Shown here piece by piece: positions 28,908 to 43,681 of a stretch of DNA of 64,000 nucleotides. Position 1 is the first letter of the stretch, and each line of letters opens with the position of its first letter. A program made the position numbers and the translations under genes. The DNA is from Lacinutrix sp. Hel_I_90 (GTDB lineage Bacteria > Bacteroidota > Bacteroidia > Flavobacteriales > Flavobacteriaceae), in assembly GCF_000934685.1 (NCBI RefSeq), contig NZ_JYNQ01000001.1, forward strand, positions 2,592,501 to 2,656,500, written 5' to 3'. Below the pieces are notes generated by a model. It was not told where the DNA came from, ran no database searches, and worked only from the letters and a program-made list of their open reading frames with translations.

Positions 28908-28981
28908 GGTCTGGTAGTTCAGTTGGTTAGAATGTCGCCCTGTCACGGCGAAGGTCGCGGGTTCGAGTCCCGTCCAGACCG
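28908..28981 (+). tRNA. tRNA-Asp (GTC)
   Basis: A complete cloverleaf: acceptor arms GGTCTGG / CCAGACC with discriminator G, anticodon loop CTGTCAC (anticodon GTC) closed by TCGCC/GGCGA, and a T arm with GGTTCGAGTCC. CCA is not encoded. The last 14 bases form part of the attachment site of the island to the right, and the gene stays intact after integration. Confidence 0.97.
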
Positions 28982-28985
28982 CAAA
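28968..28985 (+). repeat. attL core (18-bp direct repeat)
   Basis: TCCCGTCCAGACCGCAAA spans the T-arm/acceptor end of tRNA-Asp and three bases beyond. It is repeated exactly at 39139-39156. Confidence 0.88.
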
Positions 28986-28991
28986 TTGTTT

Positions 28992-29021
28992 AAAGCCTTA
29001 AAGAAATTTAAGGCTTTTTTT
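28992..29021 (+). terminator. Terminator at the island left end
   Basis: Arms AAAGCCTTAAA / TTTAAGGCTTT with a GAAA loop and a T run. It now terminates the tRNA-Asp transcript but is brought in by the island. Confidence 0.85.
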
Positions 29022-29132
29022 ATGCCTAAAAGTTAGATTTATTAGGTGCTTCGCTTGTTAATCTCTTATAAATATTGATTTGTTTGAAAAACCTTATTTC
29101 GTCACCTTTAGTCATAGTTCGACAAAATATAA

Positions 29133-29150
29133 ACCCCTTATAGAACCCCT
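29133..29150 (+). promoter_or_regulatory. Candidate integrase arm sites, left
   Basis: ACCCCT at 29133-29138 and 29145-29150, 12 bases apart start to start. The same motif pair with the same spacing occurs near the right end. Confidence 0.45.
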
Positions 29151-29344
29151 CTATTTTATTTTCTTGTTTACTCCCTAAAAAAGAGTGTAGATTACTTAGG
29201 TTTTTTCTATTCTTTAAATTTTAACATTTTTTGAAAGACTTATTATTATTGACTTTCTCATTGATTTTACAAAAAGGACATAGAACTTAGCTACAAAAAT
29301 TTTCCTACTGGATATTATATAGTAGAACGTAAAAACTTAATATT

Positions 29345-30490
29345 ATGAAATTAAATTACAATGTAAGGATAGTTATTAGAAAGGATAAAATAAGAAATGA
29401 CAACACTTGTCCTTTGTATTTAAAAATAACCTTAAATGGCAAGCCTTTAGTAAAGCTGTCTATGGGAGAAAGTATTAACAAAGAACATTGGGATAGTAAA
29501 CACCAAAAAGCTATTGGTAAGGGTTATGGAACATTTAACGCCCATTTAAATCGCTCTGTTTTAGAAATAGAGGATTTAATTAGCGATAAGAAAGCAAGAG
29601 GTAAAGCAGTTTCTCGTGATGAAATTGTAAGTCTGTTTAAAAAAGAAGATACCGAATGTTATTACAAGTATTTCGATGAGGTTTTCTGTAAAAATAAGTT
29701 TACCGAAATCTCCCAGTACACTAAAGAAAGTTATCTATTGTTAAGAAAGCGATTAAAAGAATTTAAGCCTAATTTAAGGTTAAGTGATATAGATTTAAAG
29801 CTAATACAAGATTTTAATTATTTTCTACTAGTTGATAAAAAGACTGGAAAAGGTGGGGTTTGGAATAGACATAAGAATTTTAGAACGACTTTAAAATTAG
29901 CCTATGATTTAAAACTAATTGATGACTATCCATACAGAAATTTTAAATTAGATAAACCAAAATCTAAAAATGAGGCTTTAACAAAACAAGAATTAAACGC
30001 TATTGTGGATTTAGATGTTAGCTTTAATAAGAGATTAGATGAAACTAAAGATAAATTTTTGTTTGCTTGTTATACAGGTTTACGGTTTGGAGATGTAATG
30101 AATTTAAAATGGGGAGATATTAAAAATGGCGTAATGCAAATAATACAAGAGAAAACTAAAAACCCTGTTCAGATACCGCTAAATAAAGAAGCAAAAAGAA
30201 TTATTGCTAAAAATGTTAAGATGAAACGAGAGCGAAATACTGTTTTTAAAGTGGTTAGCAATCAGAAAACTAATTATATACTTAAAGATATAGCTGATTT
30301 GGCAGAAGTCGATAAAAATGTGTCCTTTCATCTTGCTCGACATACGTTTGGAACGATATTAGGAAAAGACCAAAACGCTTTTACTATAATGAAATTAATG
30401 GGACATAAAAAGATTAGTACATCAGCTATCTATGTAAATACTGATGTAAATACGTTAAAAGAAACTATGCAAATGGTTAGTTTTAGATAA
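29345..30490 (+). CDS. Tyrosine recombinase/integrase
   Basis: A 381-residue site-specific integrase of the Bacteroidota type. The N-terminal arm-binding domain (residues 1-90), a SAM-like core-binding domain (about 105-205) and the catalytic domain follow in order. Catalytic residues are visible: Arg in TGLRFGD, Lys in EKTKNP, HxxR in HLARHTFG, His in MGHKK, and the nucleophile Tyr in SAIYVN. It should recombine the tRNA-Asp 3' end with the element attachment site. It sits 360 bases inside the left attachment site and points into the island. Confidence 0.95.
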   Translation: MKLNYNVRIVIRKDKIRNDNTCPLYLKITLNGKPLVKLSMGESINKEHWDSKHQKAIGKGYGTFNAHLNRSVLEIEDLISDKKARGKAVSRDEIVSLFKKEDTECYYKYFDEVFCKNKFTEISQYTKESYLLLRKRLKEFKPNLRLSDIDLKLIQDFNYFLLVDKKTGKGGVWNRHKNFRTTLKLAYDLKLIDDYPYRNFKLDKPKSKNEALTKQELNAIVDLDVSFNKRLDETKDKFLFACYTGLRFGDVMNLKWGDIKNGVMQIIQEKTKNPVQIPLNKEAKRIIAKNVKMKRERNTVFKVVSNQKTNYILKDIADLAEVDKNVSFHLARHTFGTILGKDQNAFTIMKLMGHKKISTSAIYVNTDVNTLKETMQMVSFR

Positions 30491-30626
30491 TTTTAGAAAC
30501 TGATACTTAAAATTTGTAAATTGGCGACATGAAATAAAAAAAGAAGAAAATACATATAAGTTAGCGTTAGCTATTCACTGATAGAGAAAACTGGAAATTT
30601 ATCATATGCAGGAAGAATAGATTAAT

Positions 30627-30741
30627 GCTCACGCTATGGCGTGGGCTTAGTTTGTTTGCATATGGGTATTCCAGTACCTCTCTATCGATAAGCTACAGTT
30701 CCACGCTTATTTTTTTATTGTTAACACTCTTTTCGGAACTG
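30627..30741 (+). promoter_or_regulatory. Structured leader before the TonB-C protein
   Basis: A GC-rich hairpin (GCTCACGC-TATG-GCGTGGGC, 30627-30646) is followed by a longer pairing CAGTTCC (30696) with GGAACTG (30735). It contrasts with the AT-rich surroundings. It may be a transcribed regulatory structure or a repeat remnant. Confidence 0.35.
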
Positions 30742-30762
30742 ATAGAGTTTATAAAACTAACA

Positions 30763-31923
30763 ATGAAAAAACACCTTATTTTAATACTGTTATCTACAGT
30801 ATTTTTTGTTCAAAAAAGTAATTCTCAAGTAAATAATTTAACCGAATTTCTTGATTTATCTGAACTTCCAGAATTTGTTTTAACAAAATACTTAGAGGTA
30901 AATTGGGAATTACATCAACCTACAGAAACTATAGAAAATGGAAGAGCTATTTCTACTCATACTTTTACTTACAACTACAATCAGAAAAAACAAGTTTTAA
31001 AACGAGTTATTAATATGGATTTAAATACTGCTTATAAAATAAGAAGTACAACTTTTATCTCCGATGATTTATCTTTTTTAGACCGAATTGAAAAGAGTTT
31101 GTCAGCTAAAGAATTTTTTGAGGTTGGTAATGAAGACGGAAAAAAGCTATATGAAGATGGAAATAGAATGTTGTTTATTGAAAGAGATTTTCATAAAAAA
31201 GCTATAGGGCTGTATAAAATTACAGTTATGTATAAGGATGATTTTATTCTTTACGCTGAAAAAAGTAATAATAGTAAATCTGAAAGCACTATAAAAAGCG
31301 ATAATATTCGTGTAAATCAAAAGTGGAATATTAAAGGAATAGAAGAAGATGACTTAGGGACTTTTAATTTGAAAGTTTATGAAAATTGGGATTGTTATAT
31401 TGAGTTATACATAAAAGGAAAACTTTACAAATCCAGTAAGTGTGATAGTGAGAATGAAACAGCTCTTTTAGTGAGTAAAACAGATACTTTGAGCATTGAA
31501 TATTCTACACCAGAATTGGTAGACGCAAATATCGATATATTAGGGAATGATGTAAGTTTTGACTATATGACAACAGATGAAGAAATTATTGAGCCTGCAA
31601 AAGATAAAATAGTTGAAAATGTTATAGAAAATAATAAAATAAGTGTTGGTTCAGGTGGAGGTAGATTAATGAATGAAAAAAGCGTTAGAGAAATAGTTTA
31701 TAAGCCAAAGGATAATGGTAACCGTTGTGGTGAAAAAGGTAAAATTGTATTATCAGTCTTGATAAATAATGAGGGTAATTATGAAGGTGCTAAAATTACG
31801 AAAGGTACTACAACTACAAATCCCTGTCTAACTCAGCATTCGTTAAGCCTAGCTAAAAAATACAAATGGAAAAAAAATACGACAAATAACTCATCATCAA
31901 CTGTTTTAATATTTGAGTATTAA
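30763..31923 (+). CDS. Exported protein with TonB C-terminal-like domain
   Basis: A 386-residue protein. I set the start at 30763, where MKKHLILILLSTVFFVQKS begins a signal peptide; the longer frame runs through the structured leader. The middle is unrecognised. The last 100 residues (GKIVLSVLINNEGNYEGAKI ... SLAKKYKWKKN) fit the TonB C-terminal fold found in many flavobacterial exported proteins outside true TonB systems. It is island cargo; its role in the element is unknown and may concern the host envelope. Confidence 0.65.
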   Translation: MKKHLILILLSTVFFVQKSNSQVNNLTEFLDLSELPEFVLTKYLEVNWELHQPTETIENGRAISTHTFTYNYNQKKQVLKRVINMDLNTAYKIRSTTFISDDLSFLDRIEKSLSAKEFFEVGNEDGKKLYEDGNRMLFIERDFHKKAIGLYKITVMYKDDFILYAEKSNNSKSESTIKSDNIRVNQKWNIKGIEEDDLGTFNLKVYENWDCYIELYIKGKLYKSSKCDSENETALLVSKTDTLSIEYSTPELVDANIDILGNDVSFDYMTTDEEIIEPAKDKIVENVIENNKISVGSGGGRLMNEKSVREIVYKPKDNGNRCGEKGKIVLSVLINNEGNYEGAKITKGTTTTNPCLTQHSLSLAKKYKWKKNTTNNSSSTVLIFEY

Positions 31924-32068
31924 TTTTTTTATTTTTTAAAAATTCACTTAATATTATTTAGATTGAATATAAACTGCCTCTAAATCAAAAAAAATAATCT
32001 TTTGAAAATTTGTTTTTAATTGTACAATGAGCTTGTTTTGAGATAATTAATTAAATAATTATTAAGTT

Positions 32069-32647
32069 ATGAACTTTACTTATCCAGAATTTAGCGAAGC
32101 TTTTAAGCTACTTTATACATTTTCAAATCTTAGTTGGGAAGACACCCCTTGTCCTGTGTTTAAAAGAAAAGAAGGCGGCAAATTTTACACATCAAAATTT
32201 ATTAGAGGTATTGAGTTGGTTCTTGTAGAAAAAGAGTTTAAAGGCTATGTAGGGGTCAGTTTAGAAATATTAGATTTATTAAAAAATAAAAAAATTAATT
32301 CTAAATATATTAAGGCGGATTTTATTAGTAAAATAGGTAATAAAACTTGTGATTTTGATAATAAAACGATTACTTCCATTGACGAATTTTATCCCACTTG
32401 TTATGGGGATTTACATTCAGGACTTCATTACAGTCCTTTTCAAAATTCATTTAAAAACAAGATTTATTACTTGGATACTTTTTTACCTTGGGATAATAAT
32501 TATGAATTAAAATTAGGATTTTATCAATCTGAGGATTTAAATATCAAAAATGCACAAGAAAAGAAAGTTTATAAAATTCTTAAAAGAGAATATGAAAAAT
32601 TATGGAAAGAAGATTTTCATCAAGCGAGTAAATATTTGAACGTATAG
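32069..32647 (+). CDS. Hypothetical protein, 192 aa
   Basis: No family is recognised. The protein is soluble-looking with mixed alpha/beta composition, aromatic-rich (YPEFSEAFKLLYTFSNLSW, then YSPFQNSF), no signal peptide and no membrane segment. It stands alone between the TonB-C protein and the ABC-3C operon, with 145 bases before and 174 bases after. As cargo ahead of a conflict operon it could be an accessory or an independent gene. Confidence 0.6.
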   Translation: MNFTYPEFSEAFKLLYTFSNLSWEDTPCPVFKRKEGGKFYTSKFIRGIELVLVEKEFKGYVGVSLEILDLLKNKKINSKYIKADFISKIGNKTCDFDNKTITSIDEFYPTCYGDLHSGLHYSPFQNSFKNKIYYLDTFLPWDNNYELKLGFYQSEDLNIKNAQEKKVYKILKREYEKLWKEDFHQASKYLNV

Positions 32648-32821
32648 AAACGCATTGATTTAATTGTTTTTCTTTGATTTAAGATGAGTTTGGAGTTAAG
32701 TTATATTTTCTCCAAGCTCATTTTTGTTTATGGTAAGATAATCTTTAAACAGTTTTAAATAAAAATCTTTAGTTTAACATATTGATAATTTGTAAATTCA
32801 AAGTTTAATTATTACTGTAAA

Positions 32822-33775
32822 ATGGCAAGAGACTTTGATTATTTATTAAAGAAGCACGGTCGAGAGGGTTCAAGACAGGTTTTTGAAGATTCTTGTGCAA
32901 AAGCGTTTTCAAAAGAATTTGAAGATGCTTATCCTATAGAATGTAATCCTGGAGATGAAGGTATTGATGTTTTCGTTGGTGATTTTTCAGATGAAATAGT
33001 TGTTTACCAATGTAAATGTTTTTTCTATGAGATTGGAGATAGTCAAATTAATCAAATTAATGCTTCTTTTAAAAAAGCAATTGAATCTAAAAAATACAAA
33101 CTAAAAAAGTGGTTTTTATGTGTGCCTAAAAGTTTAACAATTGATGAGGCTAAATGGTGGAGTAATTGGAAAAAAAGAAAGGAAAAAAAATTTAAGGTAG
33201 AGGTAGGTTTAATGGATAGCGTTAAACTTTTAAACCTCATAAAAAAGCATGATTTACATTTAGAATTATTTGATGAGGAAGAGCTGATAATGCTTAATCA
33301 AATATTAGAAGAATTAGCGAGTAAAAAGCAAAGTTTAAAAGAGATTTTTGATATTCCTATTGAAATGGATTTTTCTGATAAACTATTTACTTTAAAGCTT
33401 AAATCAGCTAAGATTAATGAACATTTAGATGTTTTTAATAAGCAGTTTTTTAATGCTGAAATTTTGACAAAAGAAGTTGAAAGTCGAAATATTGAAAATG
33501 AACTAAAAGAATTAAAAAGTTTAAAATCAGTATTAAATGAAGTTTGGCTAACCCAGTATATGTTGTATGATGATGTATTTGATGGCAATAGGCTTTTAGC
33601 TATGGTGAACAAAAGAATTGAAGATTTAAATGGTACTGACACTCTAAAAACCAATCTTGAAGTTAGTTCTTCTGAAAAAAAAGGAATTCTACATCAGCTT
33701 GCTGATGAATGTACAATTGGTTGGGTGAGGAATTATAAAAATAGACTAATTGAATTTTTAGAAGAAAACAAATGA
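32822..33775 (+). CDS. PD-(D/E)XK nuclease-like effector of a putative ABC-3C system
   Basis: A 317-residue protein with an N-terminal restriction-endonuclease-like fold. The expected residues are visible: Glu22 (VFEDSCAKAF), Asp49 (GDEGIDVFVG) and Gln63-x-Lys65 (VYQCKCF), which fits the PD-(D/E)XK core with a QxK variant. The helical C-terminal half ends with ILHQLADECTIGWVRNYKN, resembling the C-terminal module that ties variable effectors to ABC-3C machinery. The stop overlaps the next start (ATGA). I infer nucleic-acid cleavage as the toxic output; activity is not shown. Confidence 0.72.
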   Translation: MARDFDYLLKKHGREGSRQVFEDSCAKAFSKEFEDAYPIECNPGDEGIDVFVGDFSDEIVVYQCKCFFYEIGDSQINQINASFKKAIESKKYKLKKWFLCVPKSLTIDEAKWWSNWKKRKEKKFKVEVGLMDSVKLLNLIKKHDLHLELFDEEELIMLNQILEELASKKQSLKEIFDIPIEMDFSDKLFTLKLKSAKINEHLDVFNKQFFNAEILTKEVESRNIENELKELKSLKSVLNEVWLTQYMLYDDVFDGNRLLAMVNKRIEDLNGTDTLKTNLEVSSSEKKGILHQLADECTIGWVRNYKNRLIEFLEENK

Positions 33776-34245
33776 TAGCTATTGGAGAAAAATATGAGCT
33801 TGTAATAAGTTCAATGAGAGTTTTGACCTTACTTGAAGCTTTTAAAAAAAACAAAACATATCAAATGACATTTGATAAAATCATCTTGTTCGATTTTTAT
33901 ATGAAGTTTCCCCAAACTATGATAAGAGAGGGGGATGATATGTCAAATTTTGATTTTGAAGAGTTATATTCTTTTTTTCACGCTCATCCTGATAGAGATA
34001 ATTACCATAGAATATTAAATTTTATTTTATCTAAAAATCTTGTTTCTAAGGAGATTTTAAATTCTTCTTTTATTTACAAAATAAGTGATAGTGGAATTGA
34101 TGTTGTTAATGATATACAAAACCCATTTTCTCTTAGAATGAGAGCTAATGCACTACTAATTAAAAAGAATATTTCTAAAATGAGTGAAACAAAAATAAAA
34201 GAAGAAATTAATTCTAAAAGTCTAAATAACATACATCTTTTATGA
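33772..34245 (+). CDS. ABC-3C middle-component-like protein
   Basis: A 157-residue protein resembling the small winged-helix middle component (MC2-like) of ABC-three-component systems: MRVLTLLEAFKKNK, DKIILFDFYMKFP, an HAHPDRDNYHRILNFILSKN stretch and YKISDSGIDVVNDI. It likely bridges the effector and the ATPase. Both ends overlap neighbours by four bases (ATGA), which implies coupled translation and a fixed stoichiometry. Confidence 0.7.
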   Translation: MIAIGEKYELVISSMRVLTLLEAFKKNKTYQMTFDKIILFDFYMKFPQTMIREGDDMSNFDFEELYSFFHAHPDRDNYHRILNFILSKNLVSKEILNSSFIYKISDSGIDVVNDIQNPFSLRMRANALLIKKNISKMSETKIKEEINSKSLNNIHLL

Positions 34246-36155
34246 GGTTAAGGTTAAATAAATTATTATTGATTGGCGACGATAAGCACTACGAGGTTAA
34301 GTTTAAAAACGGTTTAAACTTTATTACTGGTCCAATATCTACAGGAAAATCTACAATTCTTGAACTAATTGATTATTGTCTTGGAAAAAAACGCCATAAA
34401 AATTATGAAGAGGTTAGATTAAAATGTAAATATGTTGCTTTAGACCTTTATCTAAATAATCAGAGATTTTTAATTGAACGACCACTATTTTCTTTTGACT
34501 TACCAGTTAAGATTTATAATTGGAATGAAGAAAGTAATAGTTTTGAGGATGACTTCGATTTCTTTATTGTTACAATGCCTAAGGAAGAAAACTCATTAGC
34601 AAGGTTTTTACAGGACAAACTTGAAATACCTGAAATGAAACTATCAGGGCAAACATTTAGTTTTAGAGATTTATTTAAGTACTCCTATGTTTCGCAAACT
34701 AACATTGATAGTGAAAATATATTGGATGAGAAAAATTATGTTAAAGCTTTTAAAAGGAAGCCAACCTTAGAAATTATACTTAATTCTTTAAATCAACTAC
34801 TTAATGAATTAAAAAATGATAAAAAGGAACAATCACAATTAATTAATGAATTGTTAGATAGAAAAGAAGCTATTGTTAAGTTTCTTAGAGATGTAGAATT
34901 ATTTTCTACAAAATCTCAAAATGAAGATAGAAAAGCGGCATTAATAATAAAAAGGACTGAGCATTTATCTGAATTGATTGAAGTAAAAAACAATGGAAAA
35001 CTTAAAAATGACAACACAAAATCTTTAGAGTTTCAATTATTTAAATTAAGGGATAGAATTGAAAGCCTTAGTGAAGAAGAAAATGAGATTAGGAAATATA
35101 TAACTAAACTTAATTTGTTGTTAAATCAGTATTCTAATGAGATTATTAAATTGGATTATTTAATATTATCTAATGGAAAATTACAAAGTATAGAATTTTC
35201 TTCATGCCCTTCATGCAGTAGTGAAATAGATAAAAAAGCGCATAATAATTGTGATTTATGCGGAAATATTCTAACTGAATACAATGAAGAAGAAGAAAAA
35301 GCTATAAAATTAGAAAGGAAAAGATTAAATATGAGGCTGAATTCCCTTAAAGATTTCATTGAAGAACAAAATGAATTACTCTATGACAAGAGTAAGCTAA
35401 AAGAAAAAAGGAAAAGAGAAATTTACGAGATTGAGGATAAAATTAACACTATACAGAAACAATATATTAGCCCTTTTATTGAGAAAATAGAGTTGTTAAA
35501 CAGAAGTATTGGAGAATTAGATAAAAAGATTGAAAACTTGGAGTTAAGTACTAATGTTCAAGAAGAATTAACCACCTTGTCTGATAATATACAGAAAAAT
35601 GAGAATAAGCTTAATGATATTCGTGTGCAAATTTCTGATATAGAAAATGATAGCACTGATTTTTCAAATATCGTTAATAGATTAAGTAAAAGGTTTAGTA
35701 ACATCTTGAAAAATTTTGAATTCCCAAAATTGAATAATGCTTATATAAGTGAGAAAAACTATTTGCCATATGTAAGAGGTACAAAGTACGATGAAATAGG
35801 AAGTTTAGGTGCTGTTACTTTAGTGAATATTGCGTACTTTTTATCTATTTTGGAATTAAGTTTAGAACTAAAAAAGTCGTATCACCCAAAGCTTTTGCTA
35901 CTTGATACAGTTGGTAAAAACCTTGGAACACGAGAGGTTGAGGATGGAGATGATGAATTTAGAGATACTAAAATATTCAAATCTGTATTTAAATACTTAG
36001 TAGAGTTTTCTGAAAAATATAAAGATCAAATGCAGCTATTTGTTATAAATAATGACTATACAGAAGATGTAAAAGAATCAGATATAGTTATTCAATTCGA
36101 CGGAGATGGTACAAGAGGTTATAAGTATGGTTTGATAGATGATGTAATTTCTTAG
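34242..36155 (+). CDS. SMC/Rad50-like ATPase of a putative ABC-3C system (DUF3732-like)
   Basis: A 637-residue ABC-type ATPase. Walker A is GPISTGKST (residues 30-38), the signature-like helix is GSLGAVTLVN near residue 521, and Walker B is PKLLLLDTVG near 549. Long coiled coils surround a central zinc-hook-like pair CPSC (about 322) and CDLC (about 338). This matches the DUF3732/ABC-3C ATPases and resembles Rad50 with a zinc ribbon instead of a CxxC hook. It probably senses DNA or nucleoprotein and controls the nuclease partner. Confidence 0.8.
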   Translation: MRLRLNKLLLIGDDKHYEVKFKNGLNFITGPISTGKSTILELIDYCLGKKRHKNYEEVRLKCKYVALDLYLNNQRFLIERPLFSFDLPVKIYNWNEESNSFEDDFDFFIVTMPKEENSLARFLQDKLEIPEMKLSGQTFSFRDLFKYSYVSQTNIDSENILDEKNYVKAFKRKPTLEIILNSLNQLLNELKNDKKEQSQLINELLDRKEAIVKFLRDVELFSTKSQNEDRKAALIIKRTEHLSELIEVKNNGKLKNDNTKSLEFQLFKLRDRIESLSEEENEIRKYITKLNLLLNQYSNEIIKLDYLILSNGKLQSIEFSSCPSCSSEIDKKAHNNCDLCGNILTEYNEEEEKAIKLERKRLNMRLNSLKDFIEEQNELLYDKSKLKEKRKREIYEIEDKINTIQKQYISPFIEKIELLNRSIGELDKKIENLELSTNVQEELTTLSDNIQKNENKLNDIRVQISDIENDSTDFSNIVNRLSKRFSNILKNFEFPKLNNAYISEKNYLPYVRGTKYDEIGSLGAVTLVNIAYFLSILELSLELKKSYHPKLLLLDTVGKNLGTREVEDGDDEFRDTKIFKSVFKYLVEFSEKYKDQMQLFVINNDYTEDVKESDIVIQFDGDGTRGYKYGLIDDVIS

Positions 36156-36161
36156 TTAATT

Positions 36162-37187
36162 TTGGGTCAATATAAAAAACATCATTATGTACCTCGATTT
36201 TATCTCAAAAGATTTTCATTTGAGGAGAAAGGTCTACACATAGGTGTATTTAACCATCAAAATGATGTTTTTGTAAGGCGAGCACCTATAAAGCATCAAG
36301 CTGCTAAAAATTATCTATATGGTAAAGATGATGAGGTGGAATTATATCTATCTAAACTTGAAAGCAAAATTTCTAAACTATTTCATTTTTGGACTAATGA
36401 GAAAATTCTCGTCCCACCTAATGAAAATACAAATGCTGATAAGTTGTTAAAGAGGTTTATACTTTATCAGTATTTTAGAACTCCAAGAGCTGGAGATTTA
36501 TTAAATATAACAATAAATGATACTTTTAGAGTTATAGCCAAGAAATATTACCCAAAAATATGGGAAAAAATAAAAGAAAGTAAATTAGTCAATTCTGATC
36601 CAGTTTTGACTGCATTATTACATTCTTCTGATAAGGAACATTTATTAGGATTTCTTTCTTGTAAGTTTTTAGTTAACCTCTCATATTTACCATTCATAAC
36701 ATCTGATGCACCAGTAATATTTTACAATCAATTCAAGGAAAAAACTAATCAGTACAATGGAGCTACTGCTTTAGTGTCGAAAGGACTTCAAATATTTTAT
36801 CCTATACATCCTAGACTAATGATTTGTTACTATGATACCAAAGAGTATAATTATGGAAAAAGTGATAATAACAATTGTATCTCAACTGATTCTGTTGAAG
36901 ATGTGCATCAGTTGAATTCTTTACAATACTTAAATAGTAGTTCTCAGGTTTTTTTTAATCAATTTATTGAAGAAGATTACATAAATTTAATGTTAAAGGA
37001 ATTTAAGAAACAAAAGAATGATTATAAGGTCATTAATAAGTTATTCAAAACTATGGATAGTAGAGAGTTTCTATATAACAGTTTTGAAAATTACAAGATT
37101 GATTTGAGTTTAACATTCACGGAAATAATACAAAAAAGTAATATTAATAATGATAGTTTTGAGGTTAGAGACAATTCCTTTTTATAA
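36162..37187 (+). CDS. DUF4238 protein
   Basis: A 341-residue protein with the family N-terminus KKHHYVPRFYLKRFS. Inner conserved segments (SYLPFITSDAPVIFYN, then QIFYPIHPRLMICYY) fit DUF4238. The family function is unknown, but it recurs in bacterial accessory regions. It starts with TTG six bases after the ATPase stop and no better start exists. The tight spacing suggests it is the fourth gene of the conflict operon; a terminator follows. Confidence 0.75.
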   Translation: MGQYKKHHYVPRFYLKRFSFEEKGLHIGVFNHQNDVFVRRAPIKHQAAKNYLYGKDDEVELYLSKLESKISKLFHFWTNEKILVPPNENTNADKLLKRFILYQYFRTPRAGDLLNITINDTFRVIAKKYYPKIWEKIKESKLVNSDPVLTALLHSSDKEHLLGFLSCKFLVNLSYLPFITSDAPVIFYNQFKEKTNQYNGATALVSKGLQIFYPIHPRLMICYYDTKEYNYGKSDNNNCISTDSVEDVHQLNSLQYLNSSSQVFFNQFIEEDYINLMLKEFKKQKNDYKVINKLFKTMDSREFLYNSFENYKIDLSLTFTEIIQKSNINNDSFEVRDNSFL

Positions 37188-37216
37188 TTAAATTTTAATC
37201 AAATCTTAAATAATTC

Positions 37217-37240
37217 ACAACCATAATAGGTTGTTTTTTT
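37217..37240 (+). terminator. Terminator of the conflict operon
   Basis: Arms ACAACC / GGTTGT with a six-base loop and a run of seven T. The short stem is compensated by the T run. Confidence 0.7.
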
Positions 37241-37276
37241 ATGCTTAAAAGTGAAAGTTTAACAAAATATTAACAC

Positions 37277-37330
37277 GTTCTTGCGAACAAAAAAGACGTT
37301 TGGAGGTATTAGTATAGTATGGAATATTCC
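37277..37330 (+). promoter_or_regulatory. Palindromes before the excisionase-like gene
   Basis: GTTC-TTGC-GAAC (37277-37288) and the perfect ten-base palindrome GGAATATTCC (37321-37330) precede the small DNA-binding gene. They are plausible operator sites for an element-encoded regulator. Confidence 0.35.
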
Positions 37331-37353
37331 TATTAATTTAATACTTACTTATT

Positions 37354-37605
37354 ATGAAAAGAGATGTTGAAATACACAAGCTAAAAGTTTATACGATTAA
37401 GAAATTAAAATCTTTACAAAAACTCATTGAAGAAAATAACAATAAAAAAGACTGGCTTACAGTAAACGAAGTTGTTAAAGACTTTAATATTAGTCGTAAA
37501 ACATTTGATAGGTTAAGAGAAAAAGGTTTAAAAGTTTCTCAACCAAAAAGGAATGGAAAAATCCTTGTAGAAAGAAATGAATTAGTAAGCTTTTTAAATG
37601 GATAA
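37354..37605 (+). CDS. Excisionase-like helix-turn-helix protein
   Basis: An 83-residue basic protein. Residues 1-30 are helical, and residues 35-83 form a MerR/excisionase-type winged helix (WLTVNEVVKDFNISRKTFDR, ending NELVSFLNG). Such proteins direct excision or act as replication/partition regulators of Bacteroidota elements. Its stop is two bases before the Rep-like start, so the pair is one transcript. Confidence 0.78.
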   Translation: MKRDVEIHKLKVYTIKKLKSLQKLIEENNNKKDWLTVNEVVKDFNISRKTFDRLREKGLKVSQPKRNGKILVERNELVSFLNG

Positions 37606-37607
37606 TT

Positions 37608-38597
37608 ATGATAGATAAAATAAAATTCTTATTAAGAAACTACCCTGTTAATGAAGAAATGCGTAATTCTTATAGGAAATTTGGAAAGTCAAGATTTAAC
37701 CCAGAAATTAATGTATTGGTTAAATATTTGACAAGAGAGGAAAACTTATGCAAGAAAAACAAAAAACATTCTTTAAAGTTGACATTAGCTTATGATACAA
37801 AACACGGAAATCATAAATTATATATAGAGGGCAGTATTAGAAAATGGTATTACGGAAAATATAATATCAGAGATTTTAATTACAAAGATTTTTGCCAATG
37901 TATTAGTCTTTTGAGTAAAAGATTAGAAATAGAAGAAAATATTTTATGGAATGCAGAGATAACAAAATTAGAAACAGGTGTAACAATTAGGTTTACAAAA
38001 GAGTTTGAGGGTATTGCACTTTGTGTGTCTCGATATAAGAACTTTAAAAAGAATACTTATGAAGACAAAGGTGTAAAGTTTAAAGGGAAAAATTATCATG
38101 TAATTTTTTATGATAAAATTAGGGAGATTTACAACGATAAAGACAAGTTGGAACGGTCTTACGATAAAATAACAAAAAACAATTTTTTGTTTAGATATGA
38201 GATACAAGGTCATAAAGTAAGCGGCATGAAGATGTTTAAAAATAAAGTAGATACTCTATTAAAGGTAAAAAACAACTGGAAGTACTTAGGAGACAATTTG
38301 ATTATGACACTTGACAAAGTCGAATTTATAGATGTTATATCGCCAGAAGCTTATATAAATCTTAGAGGTGGTGCAATTACTGAAATGTCAGAATTTTTAA
38401 TATACAAAGGAATAAAAGCTATTGGTATAGAAAAAACACGATTATTGATAGAAACTTTAAACCCTAAAAAAAGGACTAAGTGTAGAAAAAAATATAATGG
38501 TATTTATGAAAAACACTTAATAGAAGATAGGCAAAATTATGAGGACATATTTCGTCAAAAACTATTAGAAAAATTATTTTTCGTTTGCAGGAAATAG
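37608..38597 (+). CDS. Replication-initiation-like protein (phage gpII / plasmid Rep style)
   Basis: A 329-residue protein. The segments KLYIEGSIRKWYYGKYNIRDF, AEITKLETGVTI and YHVIFYDKIREI follow the pattern of rolling-circle-type initiators of filamentous phages and small plasmids (gpII-like). A catalytic Tyr cannot be assigned with confidence. Placed right after the excisionase-like gene, it suggests that the excised element can replicate as a circle. The assignment rests on motif memory and could be wrong. Confidence 0.5.
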   Translation: MIDKIKFLLRNYPVNEEMRNSYRKFGKSRFNPEINVLVKYLTREENLCKKNKKHSLKLTLAYDTKHGNHKLYIEGSIRKWYYGKYNIRDFNYKDFCQCISLLSKRLEIEENILWNAEITKLETGVTIRFTKEFEGIALCVSRYKNFKKNTYEDKGVKFKGKNYHVIFYDKIREIYNDKDKLERSYDKITKNNFLFRYEIQGHKVSGMKMFKNKVDTLLKVKNNWKYLGDNLIMTLDKVEFIDVISPEAYINLRGGAITEMSEFLIYKGIKAIGIEKTRLLIETLNPKKRTKCRKKYNGIYEKHLIEDRQNYEDIFRQKLLEKLFFVCRK

Positions 38598-38994
38598 CTA
38601 GTTATATAATAAGAGTAATCTAAACCCTAAATAAAGGTATCACATATAATAATATAAATGAATTAACAAGTAAACATAAATATTGGACATATAACTATTA
38701 TGAAAATGACAAGTAGATAAATGTAATAACATATAGGAGTATTTAATATAAGTTATATGAATGTTGACCTTATAAGCTAATAGATGAGTTAAAGATAAAG
38801 AAGAGTAATATTTTTTTAGCCAGCGACGAAAAGTAATAAGTAGAAAATGAAAGTTGAATCGTTAATGGCTTAAAAACTGATTTTAGTGTTTGTTTTTTGA
38901 ACTTAAATCATAATAAAGTAAAAGTGTTCTTATGAAAGATAATCGTTAAAATTTAGTCCTTTAAAATGAGTGAAACTAAATTTATATTTTTTGC
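38598..38994. other. AT-rich non-coding right part of the island
   Basis: About 400 bases without credible ORF, strongly AT-rich. This would be a natural place for an origin used by the adjacent Rep-like protein, but no iteron or nick site is evident to me. Confidence 0.4.
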
Positions 38995-39024
38995 TTGTTT
39001 AATTAAAAATTGATTGTATATTTG
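38995..39024 (+). promoter_or_regulatory. Consensus promoter pointing out of the island
   Basis: TTG at 38995, exactly 19 bases, then TATATTTG at 39017-39024. The next terminator is at 39163, so it would give a transcript of about 160 bases crossing attR. A perfect hairpin TTTTTACAG/CTGTAAAAA (39044-39070) lies in that transcript. Confidence 0.65.
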
Positions 39025-39057
39025 CTTCCGCTTAAAGAAATAATTTTTACAGAAAGC

Positions 39058-39075
39058 ACCCCTGTAAAAACCCCT
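39058..39075 (+). promoter_or_regulatory. Candidate integrase arm sites, right
   Basis: ACCCCT at 39058-39063 and 39070-39075, 12 bases apart start to start, matching the left pair in sequence, spacing and orientation. Confidence 0.45.
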
Positions 39076-39138
39076 TTAATACTTGTAGCTTTTGAAATTA
39101 TGTATAAGATATAGGGCGGAATATTAAGACTGATGTCT

Positions 39139-39156
39139 TCCCGTCCAGACCGCAAA
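39139..39156 (+). repeat. attR core (18-bp direct repeat)
   Basis: An exact copy of TCCCGTCCAGACCGCAAA from the tRNA-Asp 3' end, with no tRNA body beside it. It marks the right boundary of the island. Confidence 0.88.
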
Positions 39157-39192: not shown

Positions 39193-39569
39193 GGCAATAA
39201 AATTTAGTTGTGTTGTTTTGATGGATGTAGTAGTCCATCAAACTGGTAGAGAGCTAGTTAAATAGCTTAAACCGATGGAAAGCTTTCCTTTTTTCTTCCG
39301 TTTTTCGGACAAGAAAATTGGGATGCTTTTTTGTTTTACATCCTTTTTATCTGCCAATAATTGGGAGCCAGTCTAAAAACACAGGATACGTGTAGTTTGC
39401 TGATTTTTTCAATTACTTGATAATCATTAAGATATATTAGATTATCTTATTATATTGCATGGTCAGCGATTTGTCTTTAAGCACTGGTAATTGCGCGGAA
39501 TTCTCGTTTCATTTCTGCCAAAATCTACGTTTTCGAGTGCTAAAACAAACATTTTGTGAGGTATTTCGT
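39193..39569. other. Non-coding stretch between island and peptide array
   Basis: No credible ORF. Three small inverted repeats are seen: TTTGATGGA/TCCATCAAA (39217-39242), the palindrome GGAAAGCTTTCC followed by six T (39277-39294), and TCCG/CGGA (39297-39309). They may be terminator-like or part of an untranslated RNA; I cannot decide. Confidence 0.4.
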
Positions 39570-39577
39570 TAACTTTG
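39570..39577 (+). promoter_or_regulatory. Promoter -7 element before the peptide array
   Basis: TAACTTTG fits TAnnTTTG. It lies 36 bases before the decayed copy and 265 bases before the first intact peptide gene. Confidence 0.45.
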
Positions 39578-39612
39578 TATTAAATTAATAGTAATCCATA
39601 AAAATAATAATT

Positions 39613-39738
39613 ATGAAACCCCTCAAACTTAAATTAGCAGCAATTTGAAAAATTGCGTCATAAACGACAGTATTACCTTCTTGAGAACTGAGTTTATCAC
39701 AACCCCAAATCATGACTTTTCTAAGTAACAAGTTTTAA
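39613..39738 (+). pseudogene. Decayed copy of the exported peptide gene
   Basis: Reading from ATG gives MKPLKLKLAAI, stop, KIAS, stop, TTVLPS, stop. It aligns without gaps over the first 23 codons to MKTLKITAVALFSIG...TAVLPS of the intact copies, with three in-frame stops. Further on, AATCATGA-TTTTCTAAG still matches AATCATGAGATTTCTAAG of the intact genes but in a shifted frame. It is a degenerate older member of the array. Confidence 0.65.
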
Positions 39739-39841
39739 ACCCTACGATAAACTTTGGATAGCTAAGCGTTAGGTTGAAGCATACAAAAACAATAAATTAC
39801 AATTACTAAAAATTAATAGCAACAATTTAAAACACACCCTT

Positions 39842-40021
39842 ATGAAAACCCTTAAAATTACAGCAGTAGCACTTTTTTCAATTGGATTATTAACAGCAGT
39901 ATTACCATCGGATAGTATAGAGCCGACAGTGGAATCTTCGAATCATGAGATTTCTAAGCCAGCTATTGATTTAACGGCCATGATTGAAATTACAAATGGT
40001 AAGAGACCGAGTGGTGCTTAA
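39842..40021 (+). CDS. Exported 59-residue peptide, copy 1
   Basis: The protein starts MKTLKITAVALFSIGLLTAV, a clear signal-peptide-like N-terminus (one charged end, 15-residue hydrophobic core). An acidic mature part of about 35 residues follows, ending ITNGKRPSGA. A dibasic Lys-Arg lies five residues before the end, a possible processing point that would release a short peptide. No Cys is present, so it is not a lipoprotein or disulfide peptide. No family is recognised. It belongs to a tandem array just ahead of a TPR sensor kinase, which suggests a signal or ligand role. Confidence 0.75.
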   Translation: MKTLKITAVALFSIGLLTAVLPSDSIEPTVESSNHEISKPAIDLTAMIEITNGKRPSGA

Positions 40022-40119
40022 AAAGTAACCACGCAATGATGTTTTACAAGCATGTCGCTGTTTGTGAAATGATCAATATTCTTATTAAAATTAATAGCAA
40101 CAATTTAAAACACACCCTT

Positions 40120-40299
40120 ATGAAAACCCTTAAAATTACAGCAATAGCCCTTTTTTCAATCGGATTATTAACAGCAGTATTACCATCAGATAGTATAGAA
40201 CCGACAGTGGAATCTTCGAATCATGAGATTTCTAAGCCAGCTATTGATTTAACGGCCATGATTGAAATTACAAATGGTAAGAGACCGAGTGGTGCTTAA
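40120..40299 (+). CDS. Exported 59-residue peptide, copy 2
   Basis: Identical to copy 1 except Val9 to Ile. The frame is open 28 codons upstream (to 40036) through the spacer, but every copy has the same ATG followed by the signal peptide, and copy 1 lacks that extension, so 40120 is the start. The C-terminal ITNGKRPSGA is unchanged. Confidence 0.75.
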   Translation: MKTLKITAIALFSIGLLTAVLPSDSIEPTVESSNHEISKPAIDLTAMIEITNGKRPSGA

Positions 40300-40397
40300 A
40301 AAGTAACCACGCAATGATGGTTTACAAGCATGTCGCCGTTTGTGAAATGATCAATATTCTTATTAAAATTAATAGCAACAATTTAAAACACACCCTT

Positions 40398-40577
40398 ATG
40401 AAAACCCTTAAAATTACAGCAGTAGCCCTTTTTTCAATCGGATTATTAACAGCAGTATTACCATCAGATAGTATAGAGCCGACAGTGGAATCTTCGAATC
40501 ATGAGATTTCTAAGCCAGCTATTGATTTAACGGCCATGATTGAAATTACAAATGGTAAGAGACCGAGTGGTGCTTAA
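40398..40577 (+). CDS. Exported 59-residue peptide, copy 3
   Basis: The protein is identical to copy 1. DNA differences from copy 1 are silent (for example in the codons for Leu11, Ile14 and Ser23), so protein sequence is kept while DNA drifts slightly or copies are homogenised. The start is chosen as for copy 2. Confidence 0.75.
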   Translation: MKTLKITAVALFSIGLLTAVLPSDSIEPTVESSNHEISKPAIDLTAMIEITNGKRPSGA

Positions 40578-40675
40578 AAAGTAACCACGCAATGATGGTT
40601 TACAAGCATGTCGCCGTTTGTGAAATGATCAATATTCTTATTAAAATTAATAGCAACAATTTAAAACACACCCTT

Positions 40676-40855
40676 ATGAAAACCCTTAAAATTACAGCAG
40701 TAGCCCTTTTTTCAATCGGATTATTAACAGCAGTATTACCATCAGATAGTATAGAACCGACAGTGGAATCTATGAATCATGAGATTTCTAAGCCAGCTAT
40801 TGATTTAACGGCCATGATTGAAATTACAAATGGTAAGAGACCGAGTGGTGCTTAA
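40676..40855 (+). CDS. Exported 59-residue peptide, copy 4
   Basis: Identical to copy 1 except Ser33 to Met (ESMNHE in place of ESSNHE). It is the last array member; 104 bases and no terminator hairpin separate it from the sensor kinase start, so read-through into the kinase is possible. Confidence 0.75.
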   Translation: MKTLKITAVALFSIGLLTAVLPSDSIEPTVESMNHEISKPAIDLTAMIEITNGKRPSGA

Positions 40856-40928
40856 AAAGAAATATCTTAATTTTACCCTATAAGCACCTCTGAATTTGTA
40901 AAATAATTTCTGGATAGAATATTTATTA

Positions 40929-40936
40929 TAAATTTG
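40929..40936 (+). promoter_or_regulatory. Promoter -7 element of the TPR sensor kinase
   Basis: TAAATTTG fits TAnnTTTG and lies 23 bases before the TTG start. No TTG is seen at the ideal -33 distance. Confidence 0.4.
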
Positions 40937-40959
40937 ATTTAAATAAATTAGAATAGACA

Positions 40960-42975
40960 TTGTACAAACATTTTATTGTTTTATTTTTTTTCTCTATTAC
41001 TTCTGTTTTTTGTCAAAATAGAAATGATACAAAACTACTTGACTCTATTTATAAGCTAAGAAACCTATCTAAGGTTGATAAGTTTGAAATAAACAAGAGA
41101 ATTGATTATGCGAAAAATGCAATTGAATTATCAAAAAAAACTGGATATGATTCTACATTATTAGGTAGTAAGAGAGCATTATCATCTCTATACCTTGAAA
41201 GTGGGGAAATGTATGAGTTAAAAGAGATCAGTCTTGAGAATTTTGAATTAGCGAAAGCTTTAAAAGATTCTTTAGTTATGGCTAATGCAGATTATATATT
41301 GGGTTATGCATACGAGGAAGAGGTAAAGTATGATAGCGCTTATTATCACTATTTTAGAGCGGCTAAAGTTTATAAAAAGCTAAATAATAACACAAAGTCG
41401 GGTGAAGTAATCTTGAATATGGCAAATATTCAAAATATAGAAAGAGATTATATAGGTAGTGAAATTAATGCCATTGAAGCTAAAAAACTAATTGAACAGC
41501 TTCCAGAAACCAACTATAACCTGGATACTTTGTGGTTAATACATAATCTGTTGGGTGTTGTTTCTGGAAAGCTTAAATTGTATGATAAGGCTTTAGAGTA
41601 TCACGCTCTGGCGTATAAGTTTGCTAGTAAAATGACAAACGGTTATTATTATAAAATTACAACTTCTAGTAATATAGCATCAATCTATAGAAAGAAAGCA
41701 CAGTATAATGTAGCTGTCGATAAATATAACGAGATACTAGAAAATAAAAATCTTATTACTTATGATTCTGCATCATATGCTAGCACTATTTCCAATATCG
41801 CTTATGCTAAATTCTTAAGCGGTATTAAAAACAGGGTTGAGATAGAGAAACCATATAGAGAGGCTATGCATATAGCTAAAGATATAAATAATAACGTAAT
41901 TGAAATATATACATATCTCTATTTAAGCAAATATTTTGAGGCTATTAAGCAAAGCGATTCAGCTAAAAAATATATTAATAAAGCTTACGATATAGCTAAG
42001 GCTACTAAAACTAATGATGTATTATTAGAAAGTTTAATTTTAAAGGCCTCTTTAGCTAAAGATTCGTCACAGCAGTTTCTAATGGAGCACATAAAACTTA
42101 GCGATAGTTTGGTTTTGGCAGAACGTTCCATTCGTAATAAATTTGCTAGAATAGATTACGAGACAGAAGCGTTTAAACAGCAAAAAGAGATCGTCTCAAG
42201 GCAAAACATCTTATTAATTATTGCCTCCTCAATATTAGCGATTACCTTACTTTTGTTATACGTCATTAAAACAAGACGTGAGAAAATAAAAGAATTACAA
42301 TTAGCACAGCAACAACAACAGGCAAACGAAGAAATTTACAACCTCATGCTCTCGCAACAGGATAAAATGGATGAGGCCAGAGCGGTTGAAAAAAAGCGAA
42401 TTTCTCAGGACATTCACGACGGTATTTTAGGGCGATTGTTTGGCGTGCGACTCAATTTAGATAATTTAAACTTCATAAAAACAGATGATGGGATTACTAG
42501 GCGTAGTAATTATATTAATGAACTTAAAGAGATTGAATTTGATATTCGTAAAGTATCGCACGACTTAAATACAGATTTTGTCACTAATTCTAGCTTCTCT
42601 GGAATTATTAAAACATTGGTAGAAAACCAGTGCGACGCTTACGGTCTAGAATATGCCATTTCCATTGCAAATTCTATTAATTGGGAACTGGTTTCTAATA
42701 AAACAAAAGTGCACATCTATAGAATTACGCAGGAGTCACTGCAAAACATTTATAAACATGCCGAGGCAAGTTTAGTTTCTATAACAATTGATGAAGATAA
42801 TAATTCATTATCTTTAGCTATTAGTGATGATGGGAAGGGCTTCGAAAGTGATAAAATTAAAGACGGTATTGGCCTAAAAAACATCAAATCTAGAGTACAA
42901 GAAATTAACGCTAAATTCAATATAAAAACAACTAAAAACGAAGGAACCACCGTTGAAATAGAAATACCTATATAA
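40960..42975 (+). CDS. TPR-sensor histidine kinase (HisKA_3 type)
   Basis: A 671-residue membrane kinase. A signal or anchor segment (residues 1-18), about 380 residues of tetratricopeptide-like helical repeats predicted to lie in the periplasm, one transmembrane helix (NILLIIASSILAITLLLLYV, about 414-433), a coiled coil, then the HisKA_3 box EKKRISQDIHDGILGRLFG (His near 483) and an ATPase domain ending DDGKGFESDKIKDGIGLKNI. It uses a TTG start; no ATG precedes the signal sequence. The TPR domain could bind the exported peptides encoded just upstream. It pairs with the regulator 25 bases downstream. Confidence 0.88.
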   Translation: MYKHFIVLFFFSITSVFCQNRNDTKLLDSIYKLRNLSKVDKFEINKRIDYAKNAIELSKKTGYDSTLLGSKRALSSLYLESGEMYELKEISLENFELAKALKDSLVMANADYILGYAYEEEVKYDSAYYHYFRAAKVYKKLNNNTKSGEVILNMANIQNIERDYIGSEINAIEAKKLIEQLPETNYNLDTLWLIHNLLGVVSGKLKLYDKALEYHALAYKFASKMTNGYYYKITTSSNIASIYRKKAQYNVAVDKYNEILENKNLITYDSASYASTISNIAYAKFLSGIKNRVEIEKPYREAMHIAKDINNNVIEIYTYLYLSKYFEAIKQSDSAKKYINKAYDIAKATKTNDVLLESLILKASLAKDSSQQFLMEHIKLSDSLVLAERSIRNKFARIDYETEAFKQQKEIVSRQNILLIIASSILAITLLLLYVIKTRREKIKELQLAQQQQQANEEIYNLMLSQQDKMDEARAVEKKRISQDIHDGILGRLFGVRLNLDNLNFIKTDDGITRRSNYINELKEIEFDIRKVSHDLNTDFVTNSSFSGIIKTLVENQCDAYGLEYAISIANSINWELVSNKTKVHIYRITQESLQNIYKHAEASLVSITIDEDNNSLSLAISDDGKGFESDKIKDGIGLKNIKSRVQEINAKFNIKTTKNEGTTVEIEIPI

Positions 42976-43000
42976 TAAGCCCTTATAAATCCCTCACAAC

Positions 43001-43681
43001 ATGGAGCAAAGAACCATTAGAATTTTAATGACCGACGATCATCCAATGATTATAGAAGGTTATCAAAACACCTTACTTGCCACTAAAAAAGAGTCTCAAA
43101 ACCTTATTATTGATGTTGCATCAAATGCAGACGAATCTATTAAAGCCATTAAATACTCTATAGATACTAAAAAGCCATACGATATTTACTTTTTTGATGT
43201 TAGCATTCCAGCCTCTAGTGATGGTCGCTATCAATCAGGAATTGATTTAGCAGCGTATGTAAATGACCGTTCACCGCAATCTAAAGTGATTATTCTGACG
43301 ATGTTTGAGGAAGCGTACAGAATTACTAAAATTTTAAACGAAATTAATCCAGAAGGCTTTTTAATAAAAAGTGATTTAACAGCAAGCGAACTGTCGAGTG
43401 CTTTTCAGCGGGTATTAAACCATGAAGTTTTTTATAGTAGCACTGTAAACACAACAATTAGAAAAATGCAGCCCTACAAAATTGATATTGATAGTATCAA
43501 TCATGAAATTTTATACCTTATTTCTACGGGTATTAAAACAAAAGATATTGCTAAGCACGTAAATATGTCTTTAAGTGCTGTCGAAAAACGAAAAAAGCAG
43601 CTTAAAATTATTTTTGCTGTCGATGATGGAAAAGATGAAACCTTAATGGAAGAAGCAAAAAGTAAAGGATTTATTAGCTAG
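43001..43681 (+). CDS. NarL/LuxR-family response regulator
   Basis: A 226-residue regulator and the likely partner of the TPR kinase. The receiver domain has the acidic DDH (residues 12-14), phosphoacceptor Asp66 in YFFDVSIP and the Lys of FLIKSDL. The LuxR-type helix-turn-helix covers about residues 165-205 (LISTGIKTKDIAKHVNMSLS). Receiver insertion around SSDGRYQSGID is slightly longer than usual. Candidate targets are the peptide array and the palindrome-controlled unit immediately downstream. Confidence 0.9.
   Translation: MEQRTIRILMTDDHPMIIEGYQNTLLATKKESQNLIIDVASNADESIKAIKYSIDTKKPYDIYFFDVSIPASSDGRYQSGIDLAAYVNDRSPQSKVIILTMFEEAYRITKILNEINPEGFLIKSDLTASELSSAFQRVLNHEVFYSSTVNTTIRKMQPYKIDIDSINHEILYLISTGIKTKDIAKHVNMSLSAVEKRKKQLKIIFAVDDGKDETLMEEAKSKGFIS

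Follow-up and report, generated by a model that had tools for sequence, protein, structure and literature searches.

A candidate peptide-receptor two-component family in Flavobacteriaceae that pairs small, secreted-looking peptides with tetratricopeptide repeat sensor kinases

A peptide gene array, a sensor kinase and a response regulator

We analyzed a 64,000-nucleotide stretch of the Lacinutrix sp. Hel_I_90 genome (contig NZ_JYNQ01000001.1, positions 2,592,501 to 2,656,500; hereafter the window, with positions counted from its first letter), in which an array of small peptide genes precedes the genes for a histidine kinase with a predicted periplasmic tetratricopeptide repeat (TPR) domain and for a response regulator (Table 1). 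The original prediction, made from the sequence of the window, had described four tandem genes for a 59-residue peptide with a signal-like start, followed by the TPR kinase and its regulator, and our analysis of the repeats, open reading frames (ORFs) and domains confirms this arrangement. Four direct repeats with a period of 278 bp span positions 39809-40942, and each unit holds one 59-codon ORF for a predicted exported peptide with a signal-like N-terminus. Across 300 nt, identity to copy 1 is 98% for copies 2 and 3 and 84% for copy 4; six codons vary among the four copies, and the amino acid is altered at two of these six. The ORF listing shows copies 2-4 as 87 residues owing to an in-frame ATG further upstream, and relatives conserve the inner start. 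The feature had been taken to begin at 39613, a position that does belong to peptide-gene-related sequence but falls in a broken fifth copy and not in an intact gene. The decayed copy, the four copies, the kinase and the regulator follow one another in this order, all on the plus strand. Pfam and NCBIfam scans gave no convincing family for the peptides.

The kinase carries a signal-like N-terminus and, judged by eye, a single transmembrane segment before HisKA_3; its location is predicted from sequence. Its domain matches comprise TPRs, HATPase_c and HisKA_3, the last of which scored under its cut-off. Catalytic residues are invariant in eight aligned sequences including that of the window (H486 and N596 in the kinase, D66 and K123 in the regulator). 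Among 71 related kinases, 68 have a regulator of the same family within 1.5 kb downstream, and 63 start with TTG or GTG in a longest-frame reading, a choice of start codon that perhaps keeps receptor levels low. No relative was found in the viral contigs scanned with the kinase.

Table 1. Features of the peptide-kinase locus, in window positions
Feature	Position	Strand	Description
TAnnTTTG box	39570..39577	+	only such box in 39300-39841; likely promoter for the array as a whole
Decayed fifth peptide gene copy	39611..39680	+	69-73% identity to the four copies; ATG, 11 codons, stop
Peptide gene copy 1	39842..40021	+	59 aa, signal-like N-terminus, C-terminus KRPSGA
Peptide gene copy 2	40120..40299	+	repeat alignment and ORF
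Peptide gene copy 3	40398..40577	+	repeat alignment and ORF
Peptide gene copy 4	40676..40855	+	repeat alignment and ORF
TAAATTTG box	40929..40936	+	31 nt before kinase start; likely the kinase's own promoter
TPR sensor histidine kinase	40960..42975	+	671 aa; TTG start; predicted periplasmic TPR domain, HisKA_3, HATPase_c
Response regulator	43001..43681	+	receiver domain and NarL/RcsB-like C-terminal part; helix-turn-helix match weak

The motif TAnnTTTG, which we take to be the -7 type box of Bacteroidota, occurs at just three places in 39300-41100; two are given in Table 1 and the third, at 41079, falls within the kinase gene. Of the 71 related kinases, 55 have a box of this type within 120 nt upstream, against 8.2 expected from shuffling, and its usual position is -28 to -34. 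For the peptide genes, 34 such boxes were counted in 48 relatives, 28 of them placed 201-280 nt ahead of the first ATG. The absence of a terminator between array and kinase, noted in the original prediction, held when we searched the window for one. A single array-kinase transcript is unsupported and cannot be assumed, because the kinase here, like most of its relatives, has a promoter-like box of its own. The boxes instead suggest that the array forms one transcript and that the kinase is expressed from a separate promoter.

Pairing of peptide and kinase genes across genomes

We approached the pairing from the kinase side, from the peptide side and through a control family. A profile of eight TPR domains provided the first kinase-chosen set, 79 loci drawn from the best 80 of 123 confirmed matches and thus skewed to near relatives; most of its records are named Flavobacteriaceae, with Lacinutrix, Olleya, Bizionia, Psychroserpens, Winogradskyella, Gelidibacter and Flavobacterium among them. 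Small secreted ORFs were called within 600 bp upstream by a home-made hydrophobicity rule, not SignalP. By this rule a secreted-looking small ORF lies upstream of 66 of 71 countable kinases versus 8 of 441 other genes, and one of those eight genes is itself a second TPR kinase. The five misses include a locus with a lipoprotein-like ORF (L113), one with a peptide 1.06 kb upstream (L063) and three with none (L107, L109 and L114); L038, a stretch of the same record as L063, contains 772 N. The second set came from a kinase profile run on 247 Bacteroidota genomes, whose species may overlap those of the first, and here a secreted small ORF precedes 33 of 40 kinases with the window's TPR type versus 4 of 49 without it. 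Its seven misses divide into two peptides overlooked by the rule (L129 and L134), three small ORFs of uncertain type (L153, L154 and L168) and two loci with none (L163 and L167).

From the peptide side, a profile built from 50 peptides and run against 299 Flavobacteriaceae genomes returned 62 confident matches in 41 genomes. Fifty-nine of them, in 39 of the 41 genomes, sit 107-1308 bp before a kinase, and the remaining three lie at contig ends. Among the 46 weaker matches listed, down to 7.1e-5, 25 adjoin a kinase according to the tables; of the other 21, all 11 that were retrieved stand before a kinase and 10 fall in open frames of 186-742 aa. One match retrieved from below 7.1e-5 (L288) likewise stands before a kinase. 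The original prediction had named homologous peptides occurring mostly away from TPR kinases as evidence that would count against it; this is not what the genomes hold, and on these counts we rejected orphan peptides elsewhere among the matches followed.

FimS-like kinases elsewhere in Bacteroidota, found in 17 of 148 sampled genomes and none of them above the curated cut-off, served as a control. A secreted small ORF lies upstream of 1 of 24 (two, L309 and L311, have less than 60 nt upstream). Together with the 4 of 49 kinases without the window's TPR type, this led us to reject the pairing as a general habit of TPR kinases. Because the kinase-side, peptide-side and control tests agree, we conclude that the association of peptide and kinase is strong and that it belongs to this kinase clade.

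The surroundings of the peptide-kinase unit vary while the unit itself stays. In a comparison of nine loci, a DUF58 gene lies upstream in six and a DUF456-like gene downstream in six, and a LacI-like gene is found at several others. A conserved position of this kind, often shared by loci with the window's peptide type, is what would be expected if unrelated genes were merely held together by conserved synteny. We consider such a chance neighborhood practically negligible, however, as the pairing recurs in other surroundings with unlike peptides and is present twice in the window's own genome, where a second locus (L149; G000:C1:2439000-2445500) has a paralogous TPR kinase whose gene is preceded, at a distance of 85 bp, by one for a lipoprotein-like peptide.

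Some loci of the clade are organized differently. At L269, L270 and L271, two to five TPR kinase genes stand head to tail with no small peptide between them, and a 193-aa lipoprotein-like gene precedes the tandem sets of L270 and L271. In the window, a 10.2 kb island (28968-39156) separates the peptide array from the DUF58/tRNA-Asp end of the conserved locus. An 18-bp repeat of the tRNA 3' end flanks it on both sides, an integrase-like gene was recognized by eye at 29345-30490, and the genes at 32822-36155 match Lamassu LmuA, LmuC and LmuB.

Peptide diversity and a proposed mechanism

The peptides fall into several types. In type I, to which those of the window belong, the MK[T/S]LKIT start and the hydrophobic stretch are well conserved, the middle is variable and the C-terminus is mostly basic; among 50 such peptides, P occupies position -4 in 38, G occupies position -1 in 35, and an exact P-x-[N/Q]-G is present in 30. 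Lys-Arg had been put forward as the point at which an active fragment is released, but just 6 of these 50 relatives have Lys-Arg within the last 12 residues, and we rejected it as a processing site. A second type, known from 11 loci recovered as weak matches and all before a kinase, combines an MKxLKIT start with a lipobox-like cysteine and an acidic middle. Lipoprotein-like precursors make up 20 of 36 in one set, by a loose cysteine rule. The Flavobacterium-like type, so labeled by likeness to L115 and L117, ends in [K/R]-x-D and may carry a 13-16-residue unit in two to five exact copies within one precursor; another precursor has a 13-residue unit six times.

Peptide sequences are multiplied by two routes. 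Exact internal repeats of at least five residues occur in 8 of 38 precursors versus 0.32 by shuffling, three of the eight being weak cases (one is a proline run, the other two are close relatives with the same two-fold six-residue repeat). Type I gene arrays comprise two to seven copies; four to seven are present in 7 of the 79 loci, a set in which most loci have one copy, and three of these seven are the same records as in the nine-locus comparison, which adds arrays of two to five. Arrays also occur, separately, in the lipoprotein type (five copies at L272, three at L273). The peptide arrays of L035, L037 and L038 adjoin contig ends or runs of N in draft assemblies, and array copy numbers are therefore probably undercounted. 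An increase in copies, whether by arrays or by internal repeats, would be expected of a signal and less so of a structural part.

The two partners also diverge together. Across 48 loci, the distance between mature peptides correlates with the distance between TPR domains (r 0.57; partial r 0.40 when the kinase domain is controlled for, a value reached in 0 of 2000 permutations), and its partial correlation with the kinase domain is 0.24. The signal part behaves in reverse, with a partial r of 0.18 with the TPR domain and 0.54 with the kinase domain. This specific co-divergence bears on the idea that the system makes the peptide as its output, such as a bacteriocin or a surface or matrix peptide, while the kinase answers something else. 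Peptide genes with promoter-like boxes and a long conserved leader could indeed be targets of the regulator; yet the peptide follows the TPR domain in particular, and inspection by eye of the compared loci recognized no immunity, export or modifying gene. We give this explanation little credence.

The leader itself has several features. About 200 nt long and conserved, it lies 200-270 nt upstream of the peptide ATG at L056, L058, L069, L070, L076, L091 and other loci. After the promoter box it has a hairpin CCTTxATAAG...CTTATxAAGG with a CCCCTAAA loop, and further on repeated ATCCATT and CCCTC/CCCTAA blocks; AACCCTAAA precedes the first peptide codons and CCCTAAAAATTAC lies inside them, where synonymous change is lower. 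RNAIII with its hld gene is a known case of a regulatory RNA that also encodes a peptide, and an mRNA with C-rich loops might likewise be the main functional product here. The repeated blocks, the lower synonymous change near the 5' end of the peptide gene and the placement of CCCT inside predicted hairpin loops (55 of 134 versus 36.6 by shuffling) agree with this. Against it, RNAalifold on 20 leaders gave zero consensus pairs, Rfam returned no family over the leader (one scan returned only tRNAs), the leader is poorly preserved in the window, and the protein is under purifying selection, with a ratio of non-synonymous to synonymous change (dN/dS) of ~0.25 in 37 close pairs, a value biased down by picking pairs with non-synonymous divergence (pN) <0.25. 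We regard a primary role of the RNA as very improbable.

Structure prediction addressed the sensor through two fused models from close relatives (L042 and L043), each of which runs without a break from peptide to TPR domain. Both contain a confident TPR superhelix, with block means mostly >90. At the peptide C-terminus, about six residues rise above 50 in predicted local distance difference test (pLDDT) score between disordered flanks (E-K-K-P-T-N in L042 and K-R-V-P-T-E in L043), which is a hint of docking only. The top 50 Foldseek matches of the first fused model include complexes of LGN with its partners as well as Rap-Phr 6t46 and Rap 4gyo. The predicted fold of the sensor thus resembles that of peptide-binding TPR proteins, Rap included.

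We propose that the locus encodes a peptide-receptor two-component module in which the neighboring kinase has the secreted peptide as its cognate ligand, and we consider this probable. That the peptides are ligands had been suggested in the original prediction; the suggestion withstands the adjacency count (59 of 62), and co-divergence, multiplication and the Rap- and LGN-like fold lend it indirect support, although its release step did not stand. Purifying selection on the peptide and its conserved C-terminal end also speak for a ligand. In the mechanism that we envisage, each small gene gives rise to a propeptide whose N-terminal sequence, of the signal type, would direct its export. The exported part, chiefly its free C-terminal segment, would bind the groove of a TPR superhelix that the neighboring kinase is predicted to hold outside the inner membrane. 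Judging from the intact catalytic residues, binding may then alter autophosphorylation and, through the regulator, transcription. Gene arrays, as in the window, or repeats within one precursor would increase the amount of ligand. Ligand and sensor domain change together, which could keep pairs specific. We lean towards a secreted, self-made signal that would act on the producer, on its neighbors or on both; this is probably a family without prior description, through which bacteria sense peptides of their own making.

Several observations weigh against this proposal. The C-terminal motif differs between groups, and the window peptide is a variant ending in P-S-G-A. The last 16 residues alone have a partial r of just 0.20 with the TPR domain (1 of 2000 permutations). 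Co-divergence may in part reflect shared fast evolution, although the opposite behavior of the signal part argues against this as its whole cause. The pLDDT rise may reflect conservation instead of docking. Lipoprotein-like peptides suggest membrane-held ligands that would need release or contact, and a diffusible pheromone fits these less well. Lastly, the clade includes kinases that are not preceded by a small secreted ORF (L107, L109, L114, L163, L167 and the tandem kinases of L269-L271).

The main rival explanation is that the small protein is no pheromone but stays in the envelope as an accessory subunit or gauge of the kinase, which would report on export, lipoprotein traffic or envelope damage within one cell; RcsF and CpxP are such gauges for other kinases. 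The lipoprotein-like signals of many relatives, in which acidic residues often follow the cysteine, are in keeping with a gauge, as are the single-copy state of most of the 79 loci and the separate promoter-like box before 55 of 71 kinases. Precursor repeats and gene arrays look odd for such a protein, as does a C-terminal end that stays conserved in an otherwise very variable chain, and we judge the gauge unlikely. Returning to the peptide as cognate ligand, a broader generalization would be a widespread Bacteroidota family of peptide-pheromone two-component systems, in which secreted or lipid-anchored propeptides, multiplied in number, are read via their free C-terminus by a periplasmic TPR kinase in species-specific, co-diversified pairs, of which some genomes would have two or more. 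We put the chances of this wider picture at about even.

Relation to known peptide-sensing systems

Secreted peptides encoded beside a membrane kinase are familiar from the Gram-positive AgrC, ComD and BlpH systems, which have multi-pass sensor domains and dedicated processing exporters. The window family shares with them the peptide gene next to a membrane histidine kinase and differs by its TPR sensor; no exporter or protease was recognized at the window locus or at the nine compared loci.

The RRNPPA systems of Firmicutes (Rap-Phr, NprR, PlcR-PapR, AimR-AimP and Rgg-SHP) resemble the family in that a propeptide gene adjoins the gene of a TPR receptor. Their propeptides are exported by a Sec signal, with the active part usually at the C-terminus, and the window family has a signal-like N-terminus, a conserved C-terminus and export predicted from its sequence. 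Its sensor, in which TPRs are present and peptide binding is proposed, matches Rap structures in the models. RRNPPA receptors, however, are cytoplasmic proteins of 250-500 aa whose peptide is re-imported by Opp, whereas the window receptor is a 671-aa histidine kinase of Bacteroidota with its TPR domain predicted outside the inner membrane. Several peptides per propeptide and several propeptide genes both occur in RRNPPA systems, according to PMC9765709 and PMC10075063, and the former treats gene copies and internal peptides as two routes of multiplication.

Candidate clusters of ribosomally synthesized and post-translationally modified peptides (RiPPs) in Bacteroidales place precursors near a kinase and regulator (BGC5) or TPR-like genes (BGC2, 9), as described in PMC10352776, whose authors mention that TPR domains bind pheromones. 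These clusters have modifying enzymes, double-glycine leaders and peptidase transporters, none of which we recognized in the window family; a scan of the genes in the window at 34-38 and 40-47 kb gave no RiPP modifying enzyme or transporter, and relatives were judged by eye. Among open-access full texts, which leave most subscription papers and all bioRxiv preprints outside, we found no described peptide signaling of this kind in Bacteroidota.

FimS of the Porphyromonas gingivalis FimS-FimR system, the studied TPR sensor kinase of Bacteroidota, is likewise a histidine kinase with a periplasmic TPR sensor, as is predicted for the window kinase, and a cognate regulator; PMC11053733 gives its signal as unknown. 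Against the FimS model the window kinase scores 59 bits over 114-450, well under the curated cut-off of 600 of NF053520, and FimS-like relatives differ in that only 1 of 24 has a small secreted ORF upstream. For the window's kinase type, present in 169 of the 299 sampled Flavobacteriaceae genomes, candidate ligands can now be named by sequence; each is short, encoded next door and cheap to synthesize, so that a direct test of a signal for a TPR sensor kinase is possible.

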